DNA of 32,104 nucleotides from Synergistales bacterium 58_81 (GTDB taxonomy: Bacteria > Synergistota > Synergistia > Synergistales > Thermovirgaceae). Position 1 is the stretch's first letter, and every line of letters begins with the position of its first letter. The translations under genes were made by a program, and so were the position numbers. A model generated the notes under the pieces. The model was not told the DNA's origin. It worked only from the letters and a program-made list of their open reading frames with translations, and ran no database searches. Positions 5,018 to 27,483 of this stretch are shown piece after piece. The stretch lies in assembly GCA_001509095.1 (NCBI GenBank), contig LGGV01000008.1, positions 1 to 32,104 of the forward strand, given 5' to 3'.

Positions 5018-5703
5018 ATGGCGATGAACGGAATAGTCAGGGTAGAAAGCATCACCAAGATATACAGCCTGGGCGACGTCAAGGTGGAAGCCCTGCGGGA
5101 GGTCAGTTTCTCGGTGGAGGCAGGAGAGTTCCTATCCATCATGGGGGCTTCAGGTTCAGGAAAGTCGACAATGATGAACATCCTGGGGTGCCTTGATACG
5201 CCGACCGGGGGACAGTATTTCCTTGAGGGTCATAACGTCAGCAGCCTGTCGGGAGACGAACTGGCGGACATACGCAAGCACAAGATCGGTTTCGTCTTCC
5301 AGGGGTTCAACCTTCTCCCGCGGATGACGGCCCTTGAGAATGTAAAACTGCCGATGCTCTACAACGGCGTACACCCCTCCGTGAGGGACAGGAAGGCCTT
5401 GGATGCCCTTGAACTGGTGGGGTTGGGCGACAGGGCTCATCATCAGCCCCAGCAGCTCTCAGGGGGGCAGCAGCAGAGAGTGGCGTGAACGACGCCTCGA
5501 TCATCCTGGCCGATGAGCCGACGGGGAACCTGGACAGCAGGACCAGCAAGGATATCATGGAACTTTTTACTGATCTTAATAGGGAGTACGGAAGGACCAT
5601 AATACAGGTCACCCACGAGGCGGAAATGGCCTCCTACGGCAAGAGGGTCCTCACCTTCCGGGACGGAATGGTGCTGAAGGACGAAAGGACGGGACGGCCG
5701 TGA
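5018..5703 (+). pseudogene. macB: MacB/LolD-type ABC ATPase, split by a small frameshifting deletion
   Basis: The first frame (5018-5488, 156 residues) carries Walker A GASGSGKST (43-51), the Q-loop Q95 and the signature LSGGQQQR (147-154), then stops two codons later. The second frame (5485-5703) resumes with [16 protein letters not shown] (Walker B) and the H-loop VTHE. In this family the signature is followed by a short conserved segment (typically VAIARALVND). About 16 bases encoding its middle are absent at 5483-5486, which both removes residues and shifts the frame. A ribosomal slip could not restore the missing residues. The two halves are otherwise well conserved, so the lesion is recent or a sequence error. 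The end overlaps the permease start (GTGA at 5700). Confidence 0.88.
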
Positions 5704-15003: not shown

Positions 15004-15459
15004 ATGCTTGTGGGAGATCTTATGGACAGGGACCTTACGGCCGTATCCCCTGAAACGACCGTTGCAGAGGCCGTGGAGATAATGGCCGGTCACAGGATCT
15101 CGGGAGTTCCGGTGGTCGATGAAGAGGGCAGGGTGCTGGGCTTCCTGAGTGAGAAGGACGTTATCAGGGCGGCCCTTCCGGGGTATTTCGACCTCCTGCA
15201 GGACTCCTCCTTTCTACCGGATTACGGCCAGTTCAGGAAAAGGCTACAGAGGATCAGTCTTGAAAGAGTAGACAAGTACATGAAAGGCGATGTTATCGTC
15301 TTCGAAGAGCAGGATACGGACCTGCACGCGGCGATGGTCCTTATCTCCAGAAACCTGAAGAGGGCACCAGTCGTGAGAGACGGCGTCTTTTCAGGGGTCA
15401 TCAGCAGGGCCGATCTCCTTGACTACATTCTTCACTCCAGGGAGGAGCCTTCGGACTGA
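15004..15459 (+). CDS. Protein with two CBS domains
   Basis: This 151-residue cytoplasmic protein consists almost entirely of a pair of CBS domains: residues about 1-60 ([40 protein letters not shown]) and about 90-147 ([40 protein letters not shown]). Such pairs bind adenine nucleotides or SAM and act as energy or ligand sensors. A near-ideal AAGGAGG precedes the ATG. Its stop overlaps the start of the MoaD-like gene (TGATG), so it belongs to the AOR cluster; regulation of AOR or its cofactor supply is an inference. Confidence 0.88.
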
Positions 15460-15728
15460 TGTCGCGTAATGGCGTAACGCTGAAATTCTACGGCCCATGG
15501 CAGCGGGCGGCCGGTGTTGAAGAGCTCTTCATGCCCCAGGATGGTGTCACGACCGTTCGGTGTCTTCTCAAGAAGCTGGAAGCCCGGTTCGGAGAGGAGT
15601 TCTCCTCCCACGGGGAGGGGTTGGTCTGTCTTTATGACAGCGGAAAGGGTCCCAGGGCCCTTGATCTGGACGAAGAGATCCTTCCGGGCTCCACCATTCT
15701 CTTCCTGGGGATCGTGGAGAGCGGTTAA
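15459..15728 (+). CDS. MoaD/ThiS-like beta-grasp protein with an atypical C-terminus
   Basis: An 89-residue ubiquitin-like protein with the MoaD pattern: an initial strand VTLKFYGPW, then TTVRCLLKKLEARFGEEF, and ILPGSTILFLGIVESG at the end. MoaD proteins donate sulfur for pterin cofactor synthesis through a C-terminal Gly-Gly thiocarboxylate. This one ends Ser-Gly, so its ability to be activated is uncertain. The start overlaps the CBS gene stop, and the AOR gene begins 21 bases downstream. MoaD-like genes next to AOR genes are a known arrangement, fitting a dedicated role in the tungsten/molybdenum pterin site. Confidence 0.82.
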   Translation: MSRNGVTLKFYGPWQRAAGVEELFMPQDGVTTVRCLLKKLEARFGEEFSSHGEGLVCLYDSGKGPRALDLDEEILPGSTILFLGIVESG

Positions 15729-15749
15729 ACAAGGCAGGGAGGGAAAGGT

Positions 15750-17591
15750 ATGGATGGGTATCAGGGAAGAGTTGCAATGATCGACCTGGGGAAGAGAAGG
15801 TACAGGGATATCCCCCTCGACGAGGGTCTTGTCAGAAAGTATATAGGGGGGTCGGGGCTTGGGACCTACTTCCTGATGAAGTTCTGCACCCCCGGGACCA
15901 AACCCCTTTCTCCGGAGAACCCTTTGATCTTCACCACAGGCCCCTTCCAGGGCACAGGCATACCGACTTCCGGGAGGCACCAGGTGGTAACCAGGTCGCC
16001 TCTTACAGGGGTATTCCTGGAGTCCGATGCAGGAGGCAGCTTCGGGTTCCATCTCAAGAGAGCAGGCTACGACGGCCTTATCATTACCGGAAGGTCTGAA
16101 AGGCCGGTTTATCTGAAGGTGCTGGACGGCCAGATAGGCTTTGAGGACGGCCAGGACCTTTGGGGGCTGGACACCATGGAGACCGATGCGATGCTCAAAT
16201 CCATCTTCGGCGAGAAGATCGGTGTCTCCTGCATCGGCCCGGCAGGCGAAAAACAGATACCCCTTGCAGGGATCTTCCACGACGGAACAGACGCCAGGGC
16301 CGCAGGGAGAGGAGGGGCGGGGGCCGTAATGGGCAGCAAGAACCTCAAGGCCATCGTTGCCGGTGGGAGCTCCGGAACGGAAGTTCATGACAGAGAGGCC
16401 CTCACGGCCCTGATATCCGAAAAGAACGCCATCCTCAAAGAGAAGGGAGCGGGAATGACCCTCTACGGGACCGCCGGCGGAATGGGGATGGCGGAGGAGC
16501 TGGGGGACCTTCCCATCAGGAACTGGAAACAGGGATCCTGGAAGGAAGAGGTCAGGGAGATAACAGGCCAGAGGATGGCCGAGACGATACTCACAGGCAA
16601 TTACGGATGTGTTGCATGCCCTGTCAGGTGCGGCAGGGTAGTCAATATCGGCGGGGGGAATATCGGTGGCCCGGAATACGAGACCATGGCCATGCTGGGG
16701 AGCAACTGCCTGGTCAACGACCTGGAGGCCATAGCCAGGGCCAACGAACAGTGCAACCGTCTCGGGATAGACACCATATCCACCGGTTCGGTTATCGCCT
16801 TCGCGATGGAGTGTTACGAACATGGGATCCTCACCGGTGAACAGGCAGGAATGCCCCTTCACTGGGGAAGCGGTGAGGCCGTCAACTACCTGGTGACCAA
16901 GATAGGAAATGGTGAAGGGATCGGGGGGCTCCTCGGAATGGGGACGCGGGCGGCTGCGCAAGAGCTTGGGAGAGGGGCGGAAAGGTTCGCCATCCACTCC
17001 AAGGGGCTGGAATTCCCTGCCCATGACCCGCGATGTTTCAAAAGCCTTGCAGCTGGCTACGCAACGTCAGTGAGAGGGGCTTGCCATCTGAACGGATACT
17101 CCTATGCATGGGAGAGGTCCGCCACTTTCCCCGAGTTCGGGTACCCTGAGAAGCAGGACAGGACCGCCGACCAAGGCAAGGGGGTCATGAACGCCCGGTT
17201 CCAGAACCTTTCCAGCCTTGTCGATTCGCTCAAGATATGCAAATTCATCCTCCTTATGGGGGTGAACCTTTCCGACATCTCACGGTGGCTGAAGTGTGTG
17301 ACCGGTTGGGAGTATTCGATCGAGGAGCTGGAGGAGACGGGAGAACGCATCTATAATATGAAACGGATCTTTAATGCTGCCCTGGGACTTGACAGTAGGC
17401 ACGACACACTCCCCCAGAGGATCCTTGAAGAACCCAGGGGTAGCGGAGGTTCTGCCGATACGCTTCCGGACCTGAATATGCAGCTCGATGAGTATTACAG
17501 CTACAGGGGTTGGAGCAACGATGGGATCCCCCTTAAGGAAAAGCTTGAAGGGTTGGGTTTAAGAGAGTTCATGAACTGGATACCCTCCTGA
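15750..17591 (+). CDS. Tungsten/molybdenum-dependent aldehyde:ferredoxin oxidoreductase (AOR family)
   Basis: This 613-residue enzyme has the standard AOR length. It oxidises aldehydes to acids with ferredoxin as acceptor, using a bis-pterin tungsten (or molybdenum) centre and one [4Fe-4S] cluster. The cluster ligands are visible as C287, C290 and C294 (CVACPVRC) plus C497 (SLKICKF), matching the known spacing. N-terminal pterin-contact segments include YIGGSGLGTYFL and TTGPFQGTGIPTSGRHQV, and SFGFHLKRAGYDGLIITG follows. The subclass (AOR, FOR, WOR-like) and substrate are not certain. GGGAGGGAAAGGT precedes the ATG. It is the last gene of the CBS-MoaD-AOR cluster and is followed by a terminator. 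Confidence 0.93.
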   Translation: MDGYQGRVAMIDLGKRRYRDIPLDEGLVRKYIGGSGLGTYFLMKFCTPGTKPLSPENPLIFTTGPFQGTGIPTSGRHQVVTRSPLTGVFLESDAGGSFGFHLKRAGYDGLIITGRSERPVYLKVLDGQIGFEDGQDLWGLDTMETDAMLKSIFGEKIGVSCIGPAGEKQIPLAGIFHDGTDARAAGRGGAGAVMGSKNLKAIVAGGSSGTEVHDREALTALISEKNAILKEKGAGMTLYGTAGGMGMAEELGDLPIRNWKQGSWKEEVREITGQRMAETILTGNYGCVACPVRCGRVVNIGGGNIGGPEYETMAMLGSNCLVNDLEAIARANEQCNRLGIDTISTGSVIAFAMECYEHGILTGEQAGMPLHWGSGEAVNYLVTKIGNGEGIGGLLGMGTRAAAQELGRGAERFAIHSKGLEFPAHDPRCFKSLAAGYATSVRGACHLNGYSYAWERSATFPEFGYPEKQDRTADQGKGVMNARFQNLSSLVDSLKICKFILLMGVNLSDISRWLKCVTGWEYSIEELEETGERIYNMKRIFNAALGLDSRHDTLPQRILEEPRGSGGSADTLPDLNMQLDEYYSYRGWSNDGIPLKEKLEGLGLREFMNWIPS

Positions 17592-17635: not shown

Positions 17636-17664
17636 TTGTTGACAAGGAAAAATAAAGGTATACT
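17636..17664 (+). promoter_or_regulatory. Candidate promoter of spoVS
   Basis: A TATACT box (17659-17664) lies 17 bases after TTGTTG (17636-17641). An overlapping perfect TTGACA (17639-17644) would give a short 14-base spacing. An A-rich spacer supports a promoter here, but the -35 choice is uncertain. Confidence 0.45.
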
Positions 17665-17751: not shown

Positions 17752-18012
17752 ATGGAAGTACTCAAGGTCTCTGCAAACTCTCAGCCAAAGTCTGTCGCCG
17801 GTGCGATCGCGGCTGTGGTAAGAGAGAGCGGTGCGGTCGAGATCCAGGCGGTAGGAGCGGGTGCCGTTAACCAGACGGTCAAGTCTATTGCTATCGCGAG
17901 GGGGTATGTCTCGCCCAACGGGATCGATCTTGTCTGTATCCCTTCCTTCGCCAAGATCGAAATTGACGGCGAGGAAAGAACGGCAATGAAGTTCCAGCTC
18001 GAGAACCGCTGA
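17752..18012 (+). CDS. spoVS: SpoVS-like protein
   Basis: The 86-residue product has exactly the usual SpoVS length and conserved core. The visible landmarks are MEVLKVSANSQPKSVAGAIA, EIQAVGAGAVNQTVKSIAIA, RGYVSPNGIDLVCIP and IDGEERTAMKF. In Bacillus SpoVS affects late sporulation, and related Alba-like proteins are thought to bind nucleic acid. Here it sits in a diderm-type genome with no sporulation genes in view, so a general nucleic-acid-binding role is more likely; this is inference. The ATG at 17752 is chosen for length and because GGGGAGGG lies nine bases upstream. It forms its own unit with a promoter and a strong terminator. Confidence 0.93.
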   Translation: MEVLKVSANSQPKSVAGAIAAVVRESGAVEIQAVGAGAVNQTVKSIAIARGYVSPNGIDLVCIPSFAKIEIDGEERTAMKFQLENR

Positions 18013-22333: not shown

Positions 22334-23203
22334 TCAGGAGTACTTCAACCCGAAAACGGGGTGGAAGATCCTTTCGTCGTGAAGGAACTGGGCCTGCTCC
22401 TCCAGTGCCATCCTTGCCGAGTCACCCATATTTACTGCAAGTACCGATGTCAGGATATGGACCAGGAAGAGGGGGCCGATAATGCTGCTCCCGAACATCG
22501 GGCTGGTGGCGCTGACAAAGAAGGAGAGGTCCGAGAACCTGCAGATAGGGGCCGCGGGGCTGTCGGTAATGGTGGCTATCCCGGCCCCATTCCTTTTGGC
22601 TATCTCCACCGCTTCCGTGACCTCGATCACGAAACTGGGGAGTTCGCAGACCACCACCAGGTCGCCCCCTTTGACCGCTCTGGCCTGTTCCTGAAGGGTC
22701 ATTCCGGACCTGGTCATGAGGACGGCCCGCAACCCCATGGTCCTGAGCCTGATGAAGAGCGATTCAGCCACCAGGGATGAGATGCCCCACCCGGCACAGT
22801 AGACCGCTTCCGCTTCCTGGATCTTTGAACAAAAGAGTGAGACATCGTCAGGTTTGATCTGGGTCCACGTATCATCCAGGTTCGCGTGCTCCAGCCGGTG
22901 AATGGTCACCGGGAGGTCCTGCCGGTTGTCCAAGACCCTCGCAAGCATAGCGGCCGGGTTGACCTGCCCCAGTACAGCGGATTTTAGCGCGTCCTTAAGC
23001 TGTGAGTAGCCGTCAAAACCCAGCATCCTTGAAACCCTTACCAGCTGAGCCTTGGATACCCCCAGTTCATCGGCCACATCCCCAATGGACCGGAAGGCCG
23101 CTTCCCTCATGTTCATAAGAAGATATTCGACGACCCGCCTGGCCTTTCTTGGCATGCCCTGCATCTTTTCCCTTAGAAGCTCCTGCAACTGTCCGGCTTC
23201 CAC
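22334..23203 (-). CDS. RpiR/MurR-family transcriptional regulator
   Basis: A 289-residue regulator. An N-terminal helix-turn-helix domain (about residues 15-80, with FRSIGDVADELGVSKAQLVR and MLGFDGYSQLKDAL) is joined to a SIS sugar-phosphate-binding domain (about residues 115-255, with AVYCAGWGISSLVAESLF and KGGDLVVVCELPSFVIEV). Family members sense phosphorylated sugars or related metabolites; no sugar genes are adjacent, so the target is unknown. The GTG at 23203 is preferred because GGGAGGT lies eight bases upstream and the protein starts at the usual place; an ATG at 23242 lacks such a site. It has its own promoter, set in an inverted repeat. Confidence 0.9.
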   Translation of the reverse strand: MEAGQLQELLREKMQGMPRKARRVVEYLLMNMREAAFRSIGDVADELGVSKAQLVRVSRMLGFDGYSQLKDALKSAVLGQVNPAAMLARVLDNRQDLPVTIHRLEHANLDDTWTQIKPDDVSLFCSKIQEAEAVYCAGWGISSLVAESLFIRLRTMGLRAVLMTRSGMTLQEQARAVKGGDLVVVCELPSFVIEVTEAVEIAKRNGAGIATITDSPAAPICRFSDLSFFVSATSPMFGSSIIGPLFLVHILTSVLAVNMGDSARMALEEQAQFLHDERIFHPVFGLKYS

Positions 23204-23262
23204 CTGAAACGACCTCCCGAAAACCCGCAGAAAATGAACCATTCGGGCAAAAAGTTGACTTT

Positions 23263-23366: not shown

Positions 23367-24767
23367 TTAACGGGTTTCCGTTGACCGTTCACGCCTTTGA
23401 ACCTCTCCATTCTCCGATGACGGTTCCATCGCTACCCTGATCTTGTCCATTACCTTGAATATGAAGTAGGTCGACAGGAGGAAGGAGATAAAGGCCGAGA
23501 TGGGCTGGCACCACCAAACCCCCGAAAGGCCGAAGGACCTGGAGAGAATGGCTGCGGCCGGAATGCGCACCGCCAGGGTCCTCATTACCTGGGCGATCAT
23601 CCCGTAGACGGGGTAGCCGCTTCCCTGGAAGACACCCCAGAAAGAGATGTCCGCTGCTGCAAAAAGATAGGCCGTCGCCGAAGCCCTGATCGACGAGACG
23701 GCCATATCCATAACCTGGGCTGATGGTTTGAAGAGGGCCAGCACAAGGTGGGGCCACATGTAGACCATGGTCCCGATGGCACCGATCATTACCGTCGAGG
23801 AGAGAAGGACCACTCTCAACGCCTCCCGGATCCGGGGGTAATCGCCTTTCCCGATGTTGTAGCCGATGAAGGGAATAAGAGCAGAGTTGAAGCCGAATAC
23901 GGGGAGGAAGACGAACGTCTCGACCCTGTTGCCCAGCATGAAGGCACCTATGGCTGCTGGACCATAGCCTGAAAGGATCTTGTTCAGCATGGCGCCCGCA
24001 ACGGCCATGCTGCCCTGGGATACTGCCACCGGGAGACCTATACTGCCTATGCTGATCCATCTGCCGAGGTAGTCGGGTCTCCAGGTAACGGCAGGAATGA
24101 TGGCACTCCGTTCTTTCAGCCTCGACCACAGGTACAGGCAAGATGCCAGCCGGCCGATGAAGGTGGCTATCGACGCGCCGGCTATCCCCCATCCGAAGGT
24201 GAAGATCAGAAGGGGGTCAAGCAGGACATTGATCCCGTTGCCTAGGATCATGCTCTTCATGGGGGTCACCGTGTCACCCTGACTCCTGAAGATGGAGTCG
24301 GCTACCAGGGAGAAGGACATCAGCGGGGTTGCAAGGACCATCCAGAAAGCATAACGGTGGCTTTCAACGAGGACCTCTCCGGAACCGCCGAGGAGGGAGA
24401 AAAAGGCATTTGAAGATTGACGGAAGAGCAGAGGCAACACCGGTGTCGAAAGGACCAGAACAAGGACAAGAGCTGCGTCGGCATACTCCCTTGCTTCACC
24501 TCGCCTCCCCTTGCCCAGGGAGTTGCTCATTCTGGTGGTCGCCCCGACGGCCATACCGTTAACCAGGGCGAAGATCACGAAGACAAGGGGGAAGGTAAGC
24601 GACATGGCGGCCAGGGAGAACTCTCCCAGCCATGATACGAAGACCGTATCGACCAGGTGGAACAGGGTATGGAAGAGCATGGAGAACATCGATGGCAAGG
24701 CAAGCTGCCAGAGTGAACCGGCGACGCTTCCGGCTCCCATGTCCACGTTCCTCTTGAGGATGGCCAT
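23367..24767 (-). CDS. MATE-family multidrug/metabolite exporter
   Basis: A 466-residue inner-membrane protein with about twelve hydrophobic segments in two related halves, the MATE length and fold. Landmarks are GSLWQLALPSMFSMLFHTLF, LVDTVFVSWLGEFSLAAMSL and FVIFALVNGMAVGATTRMSN in the first half. The second half shows FMLGNRVETFVFLPVFGFN and ALIPFIGYNIGKGDY. Such proteins export cationic compounds in exchange for sodium or protons. GGAGGGATCA precedes the ATG, and a good promoter lies upstream. The last codons run into a repeat region with an inverted heptamer copy, so the extreme C-terminus (RRERSTETR) may be repeat-derived. Confidence 0.92.
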   Translation of the reverse strand: MAILKRNVDMGAGSVAGSLWQLALPSMFSMLFHTLFHLVDTVFVSWLGEFSLAAMSLTFPLVFVIFALVNGMAVGATTRMSNSLGKGRRGEAREYADAALVLVLVLSTPVLPLLFRQSSNAFFSLLGGSGEVLVESHRYAFWMVLATPLMSFSLVADSIFRSQGDTVTPMKSMILGNGINVLLDPLLIFTFGWGIAGASIATFIGRLASCLYLWSRLKERSAIIPAVTWRPDYLGRWISIGSIGLPVAVSQGSMAVAGAMLNKILSGYGPAAIGAFMLGNRVETFVFLPVFGFNSALIPFIGYNIGKGDYPRIREALRVVLLSSTVMIGAIGTMVYMWPHLVLALFKPSAQVMDMAVSSIRASATAYLFAAADISFWGVFQGSGYPVYGMIAQVMRTLAVRIPAAAILSRSFGLSGVWWCQPISAFISFLLSTYFIFKVMDKIRVAMEPSSENGEVQRRERSTETR

Positions 24768-24842: not shown

Positions 24843-25784
24843 TCATCTGGTCCACTTGACCAGGTGTTTCACCTCATCGACGGCCATTCCCGACAGGGAC
24901 GCCAGCTCCCTGAAACCCCAATCACCGTGTCCCGAGAGAAGAGACCGGGAACTGAAAGGGACGGGCCACGGACCTGAACCGGCCAGATCGACCAGGGAAA
25001 GGGCCAGGGCGTAAGAGCGTGCCAACTCGCCGAGGGCTGGGTGGTGAGGTCCGGCCACGACGCCTTCGCCAAGGGAGGCCGTCTCCTGGAGGCCGACCCG
25101 GAGGAGTTCGAAACCCGACCTAAGTGCTTCCCGGATCATCCTCCCTGCCCAACGGGCACTTTCATCTATCCCGGGAGGGGTATAACTTCCGGAGAGGAAG
25201 AGCTCCTCCAGCTGGGTGCCCCTGAGGACCAGGCAGGGGTATATCCTCAGCTGCATGGCTCTGTCTCCCTTAATTTCAGCGAGAACCCTTAAGTCCTCCA
25301 GCGATGATGACAGATCCTGGCCCGGAAGGCCTGTCATGAGCTGTACTCCAGGAACGAGCCGGGTACTGCCGGCTGCCAGGGAGATCCTCTCCACGGCCGC
25401 GGACCCGGTGTAACCCCTGTTGCACATTTCCAGCACCTTGTCATCGAGGGAAGATATTCCCAGCTCCAGAAATCTCACCGGGAACCGTGAAAGAAAGTCG
25501 AGGATCCCGGGATCTACGCAAAGTGGGTGGGTGGAGATCCTGATCCGGCTGCATGCGGGAGCCTGGGCTGCAGCTTCCAGGTATTCCTCCTGACGGTCCA
25601 GGGGCTGGCATGTGAAGCTGCCACCGAAAAAGCACGTCTCTACCGGTTCGCTGGCCTCCTGAAGGGCTCTCTTGACTTCACCCGGACCGGGTTGGTACTC
25701 ATGGCCGGTAATGGTCCTCTGGTCGCAGTATATGCACCTGTCGGGGCAGTTCTTCATGGGAAGGAAGAAGGGTATGCGCCTCAC
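24843..25784 (-). CDS. Radical SAM protein (Elp3/YhcC-like)
   Basis: A 313-residue cytoplasmic enzyme with the radical SAM [4Fe-4S] motif near its N-terminus: C13, C17 and C20 in CPDRCIYC. Elp3-like landmarks follow: CFFGGSFTCQPLDRQEEYLE, RISTHPLCVD, FLELGISSLDDKVLEMCNRG and VQLMTGLPGQ. It should cleave SAM to start radical chemistry; the substrate is unknown. The start at 25784 overlaps the metallopeptidase stop (GTGA) and has AAGGGGG upstream; a GTG at 25805 in the same frame has no such site. It is the third gene of an XRE-ImmA-radical SAM operon. Confidence 0.88.
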   Translation of the reverse strand: MRRIPFFLPMKNCPDRCIYCDQRTITGHEYQPGPGEVKRALQEASEPVETCFFGGSFTCQPLDRQEEYLEAAAQAPACSRIRISTHPLCVDPGILDFLSRFPVRFLELGISSLDDKVLEMCNRGYTGSAAVERISLAAGSTRLVPGVQLMTGLPGQDLSSSLEDLRVLAEIKGDRAMQLRIYPCLVLRGTQLEELFLSGSYTPPGIDESARWAGRMIREALRSGFELLRVGLQETASLGEGVVAGPHHPALGELARSYALALSLVDLAGSGPWPVPFSSRSLLSGHGDWGFRELASLSGMAVDEVKHLVKWTR

Positions 25785-26209
25785 CAGGAGCCCCCTTCGG
25801 TCCACTCATCGAACACCGCGGCCCAGGCGAACATGTCCGCCTGGTATTCAAAGCTGGTCATTGGGGTGGCCGTTCCCGACCAGAAGTCTTCACCCCTTGT
25901 ATGATGGACCAGATGGTATATCTCGTGGAAGACGGCAAAGCGCTTCCATATTTCGGGGAGGAGACCGTTAAGATAGATACGTGCCCTTTCCCCCCTTGCC
26001 ACGTGCAGGCCCCAGATCGATATCGGCAACGGCAGAGTTACTATCTCGACGGACCTTCCGCAGGCCTCCTCGGCTTTAGCCAGAAGGTCAAGGTCGTCAA
26101 GACCCTTCCACTGACAGGCCTCTTCGAAGGCCCAATCCGGGATCCTCTCGGGCGGGGATGGCCATTCGAACCCGTCGGTGCGAGCGTCTCCCAGGGCTGT
26201 TTCAGCCAT
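25781..26209 (-). CDS. ImmA/IrrE-type zinc metallopeptidase
   Basis: A 142-residue protein with the zinc-binding HEIYH motif (H95, E96, H99), then HHTRGEDFW and EYQADMFAWAA, where the later Glu is the probable third ligand. This is the DUF955/ImmA-IrrE pattern. Such peptidases often cleave a partner XRE repressor after a stress signal; the XRE gene directly upstream would be that partner. ATG 26209 overlaps the XRE stop by eight bases and has AGGAAAG upstream; a longer frame from 26257 lies deeper in the XRE gene and is less likely. Its own stop overlaps the radical SAM start. Confidence 0.85.
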   Translation of the reverse strand: MAETALGDARTDGFEWPSPPERIPDWAFEEACQWKGLDDLDLLAKAEEACGRSVEIVTLPLPISIWGLHVARGERARIYLNGLLPEIWKRFAVFHEIYHLVHHTRGEDFWSGTATPMTSFEYQADMFAWAAVFDEWTEGGSW

Positions 26210-26558
26210 CTTTCCTGTCCCAGTCGGAGAGAGCCGCCTCAACGAGCTTCTGGACAAGCTGCACCTCGCTCCTGGAAAGCTTCCTGCTTCGATACCAGAT
26301 CTCCACCGGTTCCCGGCCGTTAAGCACCTCTTCGAGCATGAGCCTTCCCGTGCTGTCCCTGTAGGGGTCCTGCACCAGGTCGACCACGTCCACGTCGAGG
26401 GCCTCGGCCAGGCGTTTCAGCAGTTTCATCGAAGGGAGTCTCCTGTTGCTCTCCAGGGACTGGATGTATATTCGGCTCACATCCACCATTTCGGAAAGTT
26501 TCTTCTGGGTGAGTCCCTTCGACTTGCGAAGGGTCTTGATCCTCAGTCCAAGGCTCAT
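26202..26558 (-). CDS. XRE-family helix-turn-helix repressor
   Basis: A 118-residue regulator with a classical Cro/CI-type helix-turn-helix at residues about 5-60 (GLRIKTLRKSKGLTQKKLSE, MVDVSRIYIQSLESNRRLPS, LLKRLAEALDVDVVDL). A C-terminal part with EEVLNGREPVEIWYRSRKLS probably serves dimerisation or peptidase recognition. CGGAGG lies eight bases before ATG 26558. The promoter carries an 8-bp inverted repeat overlapping the -35, a good candidate autorepression site. Together with the next gene it forms a repressor/antirepressor-peptidase pair of the kind known from ICEs and prophages, yet no mobile genes are in view. Confidence 0.9.
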   Translation of the reverse strand: MSLGLRIKTLRKSKGLTQKKLSEMVDVSRIYIQSLESNRRLPSMKLLKRLAEALDVDVVDLVQDPYRDSTGRLMLEEVLNGREPVEIWYRSRKLSRSEVQLVQKLVEAALSDWDRKDG

Positions 26559-26589
26559 GGGGTACACCTCCGGTCATTATGTTACATAT

Positions 26590-26618
26590 ATTATACCTGT
26601 AGTATTAAATGTTGACAA
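26590..26618 (-). promoter_or_regulatory. Strong promoter of the XRE-ImmA-radical SAM operon
   Basis: On the minus strand TTGTCA (26613-26618), a 17-base spacer and a perfect TATAAT (26590-26595) lie about 30 bases before the XRE start. The -35 overlaps the end of the CitG-like gene. Confidence 0.8.
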
Positions 26619-26625
26619 CTACAGG
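26596..26625. promoter_or_regulatory. Candidate operator: 8-bp perfect inverted repeat
   Basis: CCTGTAGT (26596-26603) and ACTACAGG (26618-26625) are perfect inverted copies separated by 14 bases. Their centres are 22 bp apart, about two helical turns. The site abuts the -10 and covers the -35, so a bound dimer would block the promoter. Confidence 0.65.
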
Positions 26626-27483
26626 GAATAGAGTGTCACAGTCGTGAAGGAAGAGGGTGCAGCTCAGGAGATCGGCCGCCCCTCCCGGGCTGATCCTGTG
26701 AATGCTGAAGAACTCGTCCATCTTTCTTATCGACCCCAGGGACACTGTATCATAGGGGACTTCATGGGCCAAAAGGTCCTCCACCAGGCGAAGGTAGTCG
26801 GCTTTCCAGAAGGCATAACCCTTCCTGGCTACGATGTTGGTGTCCTCTCCGTGCTTCATGAGGTTGAAGAGTGCGTAGAGGGCGCTGTCATGCCTGGTCG
26901 CCCCCCTGTCCAGGGCCATCCTGAAGTGGGGTATTCCGTGTTCCAGGACGGTAGGGAACCCTCTCTCGGCCTCACCCCTGATACCAGTGATACCGTGTTC
27001 CAGGTAGATTCTCTCGCCGCTCGTCAGCGGCCTCGCAGGAAGCTCGCTCTCAAGGGATCCAAGCTCCCTTTCGCAGCATCCTTTGACCGCAGCGGCGGCT
27101 GCGGCGGCCACTTTTCCCGGCCGGAGACCTTCTCCAAGAAAAAAACAGCGCCCTGTCCCGTAGAGGAGGAGCGACAGGGCAAAGATCAGACCCTTGTGAG
27201 TATTGATCCCAGAAGTGGCTTCGAACATGGCCCTGTCCATCTCTATCCCGGTCCTCCGCAGTATATCGAGCGCCTCTGCTGGGGGGACTCCTCTCAGACC
27301 CTGAAGGGCCTGCTTTTGCCAGAAGGGAGCCAGGGCTGAAGCGCTCAGGAGGAAGGTGACAAAATCCATATCCCGATGCGATCCGGGGCCAAAACGGTCG
27401 ACCAGGCCGGGTTTCGGGGCAATAAAAACTTCCCACAGGGTTGCAGAGACAGCAATTGCTCCAAGGACGGTATGAAGGGGCAT
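26605..27483 (-). CDS. CitG-like protein (triphosphoribosyl-dephospho-CoA synthase family)
   Basis: A 292-residue protein of the CitG/MdcB family. The substrate-binding start VFIAPKPGLVDRFGPGSHRD is clear, as are TSGINTHKGLIFALSLLLYG and the late DTNIVARKGYAF. Family enzymes make the prosthetic-group precursor of citrate or malonate lyase/decarboxylase acyl carrier proteins, and some relatives have other or unknown roles. No lyase genes are present here, so a different substrate is possible. The start at 27483 has AAGGGAGAT upstream and fits the family; a longer frame to 27567 overlaps the divergent regulator start. Its 3' end overlaps the XRE promoter. A moderate promoter (TTATCA, 17 bases, TTTATT) lies upstream. 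Confidence 0.82.
   Translation of the reverse strand: MPLHTVLGAIAVSATLWEVFIAPKPGLVDRFGPGSHRDMDFVTFLLSASALAPFWQKQALQGLRGVPPAEALDILRRTGIEMDRAMFEATSGINTHKGLIFALSLLLYGTGRCFFLGEGLRPGKVAAAAAAAVKGCCERELGSLESELPARPLTSGERIYLEHGITGIRGEAERGFPTVLEHGIPHFRMALDRGATRHDSALYALFNLMKHGEDTNIVARKGYAFWKADYLRLVEDLLAHEVPYDTVSLGSIRKMDEFFSIHRISPGGAADLLSCTLFLHDCDTLFPVVVNI

Follow-up and report, generated by a model that had tools for sequence, protein, structure and literature searches.

Most known XRE–ImmA pairs come from mobile elements, and the related DdrO–IrrE and CapH–CapP pairs have other outputs. ImmR–ImmA belongs to ICEBs1 and related ICEs and prophages, DdrO–IrrE governs the radiation and desiccation response of Deinococcus, and CapH–CapP controls immune operons next to it, CBASS among them. 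In the Deinococcus system the cut falls in the C-terminal domain of DdrO, and the signal for IrrE is zinc release (PMC8072749); CapP is activated by ssDNA (PMC13373217). Both systems are described repressor–protease controllers of non-mobile operons (PMC8072749, PMC13373217).

The locus considered here lies in a 32,104-nt stretch of contig LGGV01000008.1 (the window), from the 1.33-Mb MAG of Synergistales bacterium 58_81 (Synergistota), and joins an XRE repressor and an ImmA-type peptidase to a radical SAM enzyme (rSAM; Table 1). Like DdrO–IrrE, it combines in the chromosome an XRE protein that has a separate C-terminal domain with an M78 protease, and the autoregulation of DdrO–IrrE has a candidate counterpart here. 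Unlike IrrE, which has a GAF-like domain, the ImmA protein is a single peptidase domain without GAF, and whereas DdrO runs a scattered DNA-repair regulon, only one match to operator plus promoter occurs in this genome. The adjacent genes, the small GAF-less protease and the ImmR-similar HTH recall ImmR–ImmA, from which the locus differs in having no excision or transfer genes and in being fixed in the core chromosome of the order rather than carried by an ICE or prophage. As in CapH–CapP, the pair heads the operon that it would control, but no immune genes follow and the cargo is an optional radical SAM enzyme; PADLOC found no convincing defence protein downstream, where the neighbours are rSAM, MATE and RpiR genes and not an anti-phage operon. 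The original prediction did not know this arrangement as a described system. No description of the operon was found among open-licence papers, but controllers of this type are known; what is new here is the setting, the switch itself being of a familiar kind.

Table 1. Features of the locus, in window coordinates
Feature	Coordinates	Strand	Remarks
XRE-family repressor, 118 aa	26202..26558	(-)	HTH domain, linker, hairpin EIWYRSRKL, long C-terminal helix
ImmA/IrrE-type (M78) zinc metallopeptidase, 142 aa	25781..26209	(-)	HEIYH 95-99 and E121
Radical SAM enzyme (rSAM)	24843..25784	(-)	Elp3/MnmL-like core and Radical_SAM_C; CX3CX2C
CitG-like triphosphoribosyl-dephospho-CoA synthase	26605..27483	(-)	upstream neighbour
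MATE transporter	23367..24767	(-)	downstream of rSAM
RpiR/SIS regulator	22334..23242	(-)	the downstream neighbour of XRE that varies least across the order
Sigma-70-type promoter TTGTCA-17-TATAAT	26590..26618	(-)	-35 within the last codons of citG
8-bp inverted repeat	26596..26625	(-)	judged a chance repeat
Proposed XRE operator TTGTCAACA	26610..26618	(-)	over the -35; conserved across families
Possible second repressor site TATGTAACATA	26578..26588	(-)	directly follows the -10; its GTAACA core is kept throughout the family

Operon organisation

Pfam searches assign HTH_3 to XRE (E 5e-16), Peptidase_M78 to ImmA (E 3e-7), and both Radical_SAM (E 8e-17) and Radical_SAM_C (E 5e-13) to rSAM; the adjacency of an XRE-type HTH protein and an M78 peptidase that holds HEXXH (H95-E96-x-x-H99) and a downstream glutamate (E121) places the first two genes among the XRE–ImmA/IrrE (COG2856, M78) pairs. 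The ORF coordinates bear out the predicted 8-nt overlap of XRE and ImmA. The overlap predicted between ImmA and rSAM is 4 nt (GTGA) when rSAM is read from GTG 25784 but 25 nt from GTG 25805, and the former start is preferred; the 4-nt overlap recurs in several other genera, and tight overlaps within the operon recur across families. Judged from their sequence, XRE, ImmA and rSAM are real genes making up one operon.

The promoter ahead of the three genes is as strong as had been claimed, matching 11 of the 12 consensus bases, and the promoter scan gave no further consensus promoter before rSAM that would separate this gene from the pair. Transcription may also enter the operon by read-through from citG, the start of which was set at the ATG common to its relatives. 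At the other end, the MATE gene is a possible distal member of the operon, with a weak promoter-like site of its own at 24825-24797.

Distribution and genomic setting

Orthologues were followed in 61 genomes, comprising this one and relatives of the same order (Synergistales). With XRE counted above a threshold of 75 bits, 41 of the 61 genomes hold XRE, 29 hold ImmA and about 27 hold rSAM. The expected synteny stands for the pair, as ImmA adjoins XRE in 29/29 genomes carrying it, but not for the three-gene order, the rSAM orthologue being missing in 11 of these 29. Across most of the order the neighbourhood of XRE is constant, running DtxR/CitG – XRE – MATE or RpiR, and this fixed place indicates a gene set inherited with the core chromosome, with ImmA, rSAM and MATE varying in presence around XRE. 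Among named records, the closest come from a Synergistaceae MAG (JAAYDT010000008, 87% identity in rSAM) and a Thermovirgaceae MAG (JAUSOU010000043, 62%). One genome of the same genus, G002, has none of these genes and no CitG either, though with 330 contigs a true loss is ambiguous. In two further genomes (loci L091 and L100), the ImmA ORF has no usual start, a genome search covers query residues 9-138, and the gene has either an unusual start or a damaged 5' end.

The claim that no integrase, excisionase or phage genes lie nearby agrees with the Pfam scan of the window genes, none of which proved to be an integrase, a recombinase or a phage gene. Other genes of the window are ordinary chromosomal ones (HisS, AspS, SpoVS, ABC transporters, DtxR, SLT transglycosylase). 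Searches of phage, plasmid and viral-contig collections gave no relative of ImmA, the viral contigs yielding pattern matches only. An origin in a mobile element is ruled out by the conserved core neighbourhood together with these null results, and the prediction of a chromosomal operon enclosed in no ICE or prophage holds, with vertical inheritance and a neighbourhood conserved across the order; by its setting, the XRE–ImmA locus is part of the core chromosome.

The same distribution bears on whether the pair could be a toxin–antitoxin module kept in the chromosome, with ImmA as the toxin. Xre-COG2856 pairs have been predicted as such modules (PMC2701414), and one has been studied as a toxin–antitoxin system in Brucella (PMC10538038). 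Nearly every genome that has the locus, however, has it only once, its place is fixed across the order, and plasmids, phages and viral contigs gave no ImmA matches; we consider this reading very unlikely. The repeated loss of ImmA with retention of XRE is compatible with a toxin–antitoxin module and with a switch alike.

XRE occurs without ImmA in 12 genomes, from which it follows that XRE has a protease-independent role. In such genomes it persists beside MATE in family f10 (5 genomes) or beside RpiR in genus g15 (3 genomes), as would be expected of a housekeeping operon in which XRE constitutively regulates MATE- or RpiR-type neighbours, ImmA is a minor accessory and gene order reflects vertical inheritance. 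We regard this as a very unlikely account, given that the ImmA catalytic residues, a tryptophan of the XRE C-terminus and the candidate operator are mostly kept where ImmA is present.

Two observations concern other parts of the window. A MacB-type ABC ATPase at 5018-5700 (+) ends after SGGQQQRVA (stop 5488) and resumes in another frame, reflecting either an assembly error or a pseudogene. Long ORFs of 530 and 613 aa overlap on opposite strands at 15432-17024 (-) and 15750-17591 (+), the minus-strand one matching no Pfam family at E 1e-8.

The XRE–ImmA pair

Where ImmA is present, its zinc-site residues are conserved almost throughout, with E96, H99 and E121 kept in 25/25 aligned sequences and H95 in 24/25. 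In the genome G044 the orthologue (L093:5744-6187) reads FYEVYH in place of the usual FHExxH, and the exchange of the first zinc-ligand histidine for tyrosine probably leaves this protein inactive, making it a natural test case. The tryptophan near the XRE C-terminus (ALSDW) is found in 29/29 loci with ImmA compared with 1/12 loci without it. On a tree built from neighbouring proteins and the XRE HTH domain (40 rows, L086 left out), the state of ImmA changes at least 3-4 times, and of 3 independent pairs, 2-3 show the tryptophan following ImmA and none shows the opposite. The associations of ImmA with the tryptophan and with the operator depend on few independent events (sign test p 0.25-1); for the tryptophan the result is not significant (p 0.25-0.5), and the apparent covariation of tryptophan and ImmA is best taken as a lead.

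The predicted model of XRE (pLDDT 87, pTM 0.54) places this tryptophan in the long C-terminal helix and matches DdrO, SinR, ImmR and CapH, chiefly via the HTH domain. The solved folds closest to the predicted model of ImmA (pLDDT 84, pTM 0.80) are those of IrrE/PprI, the matches being weak (E 0.004-0.03, TM ~0.5), and a sequence search against solved structures gave no match, even with a profile. The PADLOC capH profile matches XRE over residues 1-103 (E 3e-13), and capP matches ImmA (E 2e-5). The pair most likely works like ImmR–ImmA, DdrO–IrrE or CapH–CapP.

In this order of anaerobes, the XRE–ImmA pair occupies one place in the core chromosome, and the protease has been lost naturally more than once. 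Orthologues with and without ImmA allow repressors that need inactivation by ImmA to be compared with ones that do not, and the locus lets one ask what purpose such a switch serves apart from mobile elements and immune operons.

Promoter and candidate operator

The operator was originally placed at a perfect 8-bp inverted repeat with 22-bp spacing. The repeat exists, its arms at 26596-26603 and 26618-26625 lying 22 nt apart from start to start, but the gap between them is 14 nt. When the 121-bp stretch around it is shuffled (first order), such a repeat turns up in ~4% of cases, the upstream arm reads CCGACGTG in the same-genus sister G001 versus CCTGTAGT here, and both arms are altered in G003-G008. 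With a frequency near chance and arms that change among relatives, the repeat is rejected as the likely operator, and the -35 is overlapped by another site that is conserved.

This site, TTGTCAACA, is our proposal for the operator of XRE. With at most one mismatch, it stands 55-69 nt before the XRE start in 22/29 loci with ImmA and 0/12 loci without it, against a chance expectation of ~0.03 per locus. In the sister genome G001 the site differs at 2 positions, and in G010 (L071) it lies before XRE in the opposite orientation as TTGTTGACAA, which is expected of a palindrome, TTGT-NN-ACAA. As TTGTCA is also the -35 hexamer, part of the conservation of the site may reflect promoter function. Just past the -10, TATGTAACATA may be a second repressor site.

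The genome contains 11 copies of TTGTCAACA, of which the one at the XRE promoter alone has a correctly spaced -10, a combination found at this promoter in 15/61 genomes; a wider regulon is ruled out by the lack of such a -10 at the other copies. One reverse-oriented copy, TTGTTGACAA, lies at window positions 17636-17645, ~107 nt before the spoVS start (17752-18012, +), where it may be merely a -35 TTGACA. In G049 and G053 the RpiR promoters hold TGTTGACA, with TGTTGACAA ~60 nt before the RpiR start (L082:4337-4345 and L084:9526-9534), and both genomes also carry TTGTCAACAA before XRE.

Proposed switch

Taken together, these features, established by comparing sequences, point to a chromosomal, autoregulated repressor–protease switch, which we consider the probable reading, with XRE and ImmA as its functional unit and rSAM as a frequent but optional part. 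XRE would repress its own promoter at TTGTCAACA, overlapping the -35, until a signal causes ImmA to cut or otherwise inactivate it through the C-terminal region, the region at which ImmA is expected to act by comparison with the cleavage of DdrO (PMC8072749). Inactivation of XRE would then derepress the XRE–ImmA–rSAM transcript, possibly with read-through into MATE. The signal may be zinc release, as for IrrE, or equally ssDNA, as for CapP, and the radical SAM enzyme would be one possible output.

The radical SAM enzyme

The original prediction saw in the locus a stress switch controlling radical chemistry, that is, one dedicated to inducing the radical SAM enzyme. Wherever XRE and rSAM co-occur, they adjoin on the same strand, with 4-nt overlaps in several genera, and in G013 the two stay joined where the usual neighbours are not detected and a gyrB-like gene lies upstream. 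Yet besides its absence from over a third of the XRE–ImmA genomes, rSAM occurs without XRE in four (G015, G032, G048, G059), and on the tree its presence shows no trend with ImmA, the two not changing together. A dedicated purpose of this kind is therefore unlikely, and the prediction was half right, in that the locus would be a chromosomal switch but not one specifically for radical chemistry.

The protein belongs to the radical SAM superfamily, C13, C17 and C20 of CX3CX2C being invariant in 15 orthologues. Like Elp3 and MnmL (YtqA), it has Radical_SAM and Radical_SAM_C domains, with sub-threshold matches to TIGR01211 (Elp3; 56.6 bits, cut-off 350) and TIGR01212 (MnmL; 49.3 bits, cut-off 180); naming it after either is ruled out, both scores being far under the curated cut-offs. 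Its nearest PDB chains are solved Elp3, from which it differs in its length of ~313 aa and in having no acetyltransferase domain. Elsewhere the genome encodes another radical SAM protein, of only distant similarity (28% identity).

Action on tRNA can be guessed at, the idea being slightly helped by the neighbours AspS, HisS and a YbaK-type editing protein; open-licence papers yielded nothing that treats MnmL together with radical SAM and tRNA. In a broader scenario, the whole order would induce this Elp3/MnmL-like enzyme under stress through a fixed, non-mobile switch, amounting to a tRNA wobble modification, or a comparable radical reaction, set off by the protease, and lineages that lost the protease would have rewired the XRE C-terminus and operator; we hold this to be quite unlikely. 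The locus also gives genetic access to a family of Elp3-like radical SAM enzymes.
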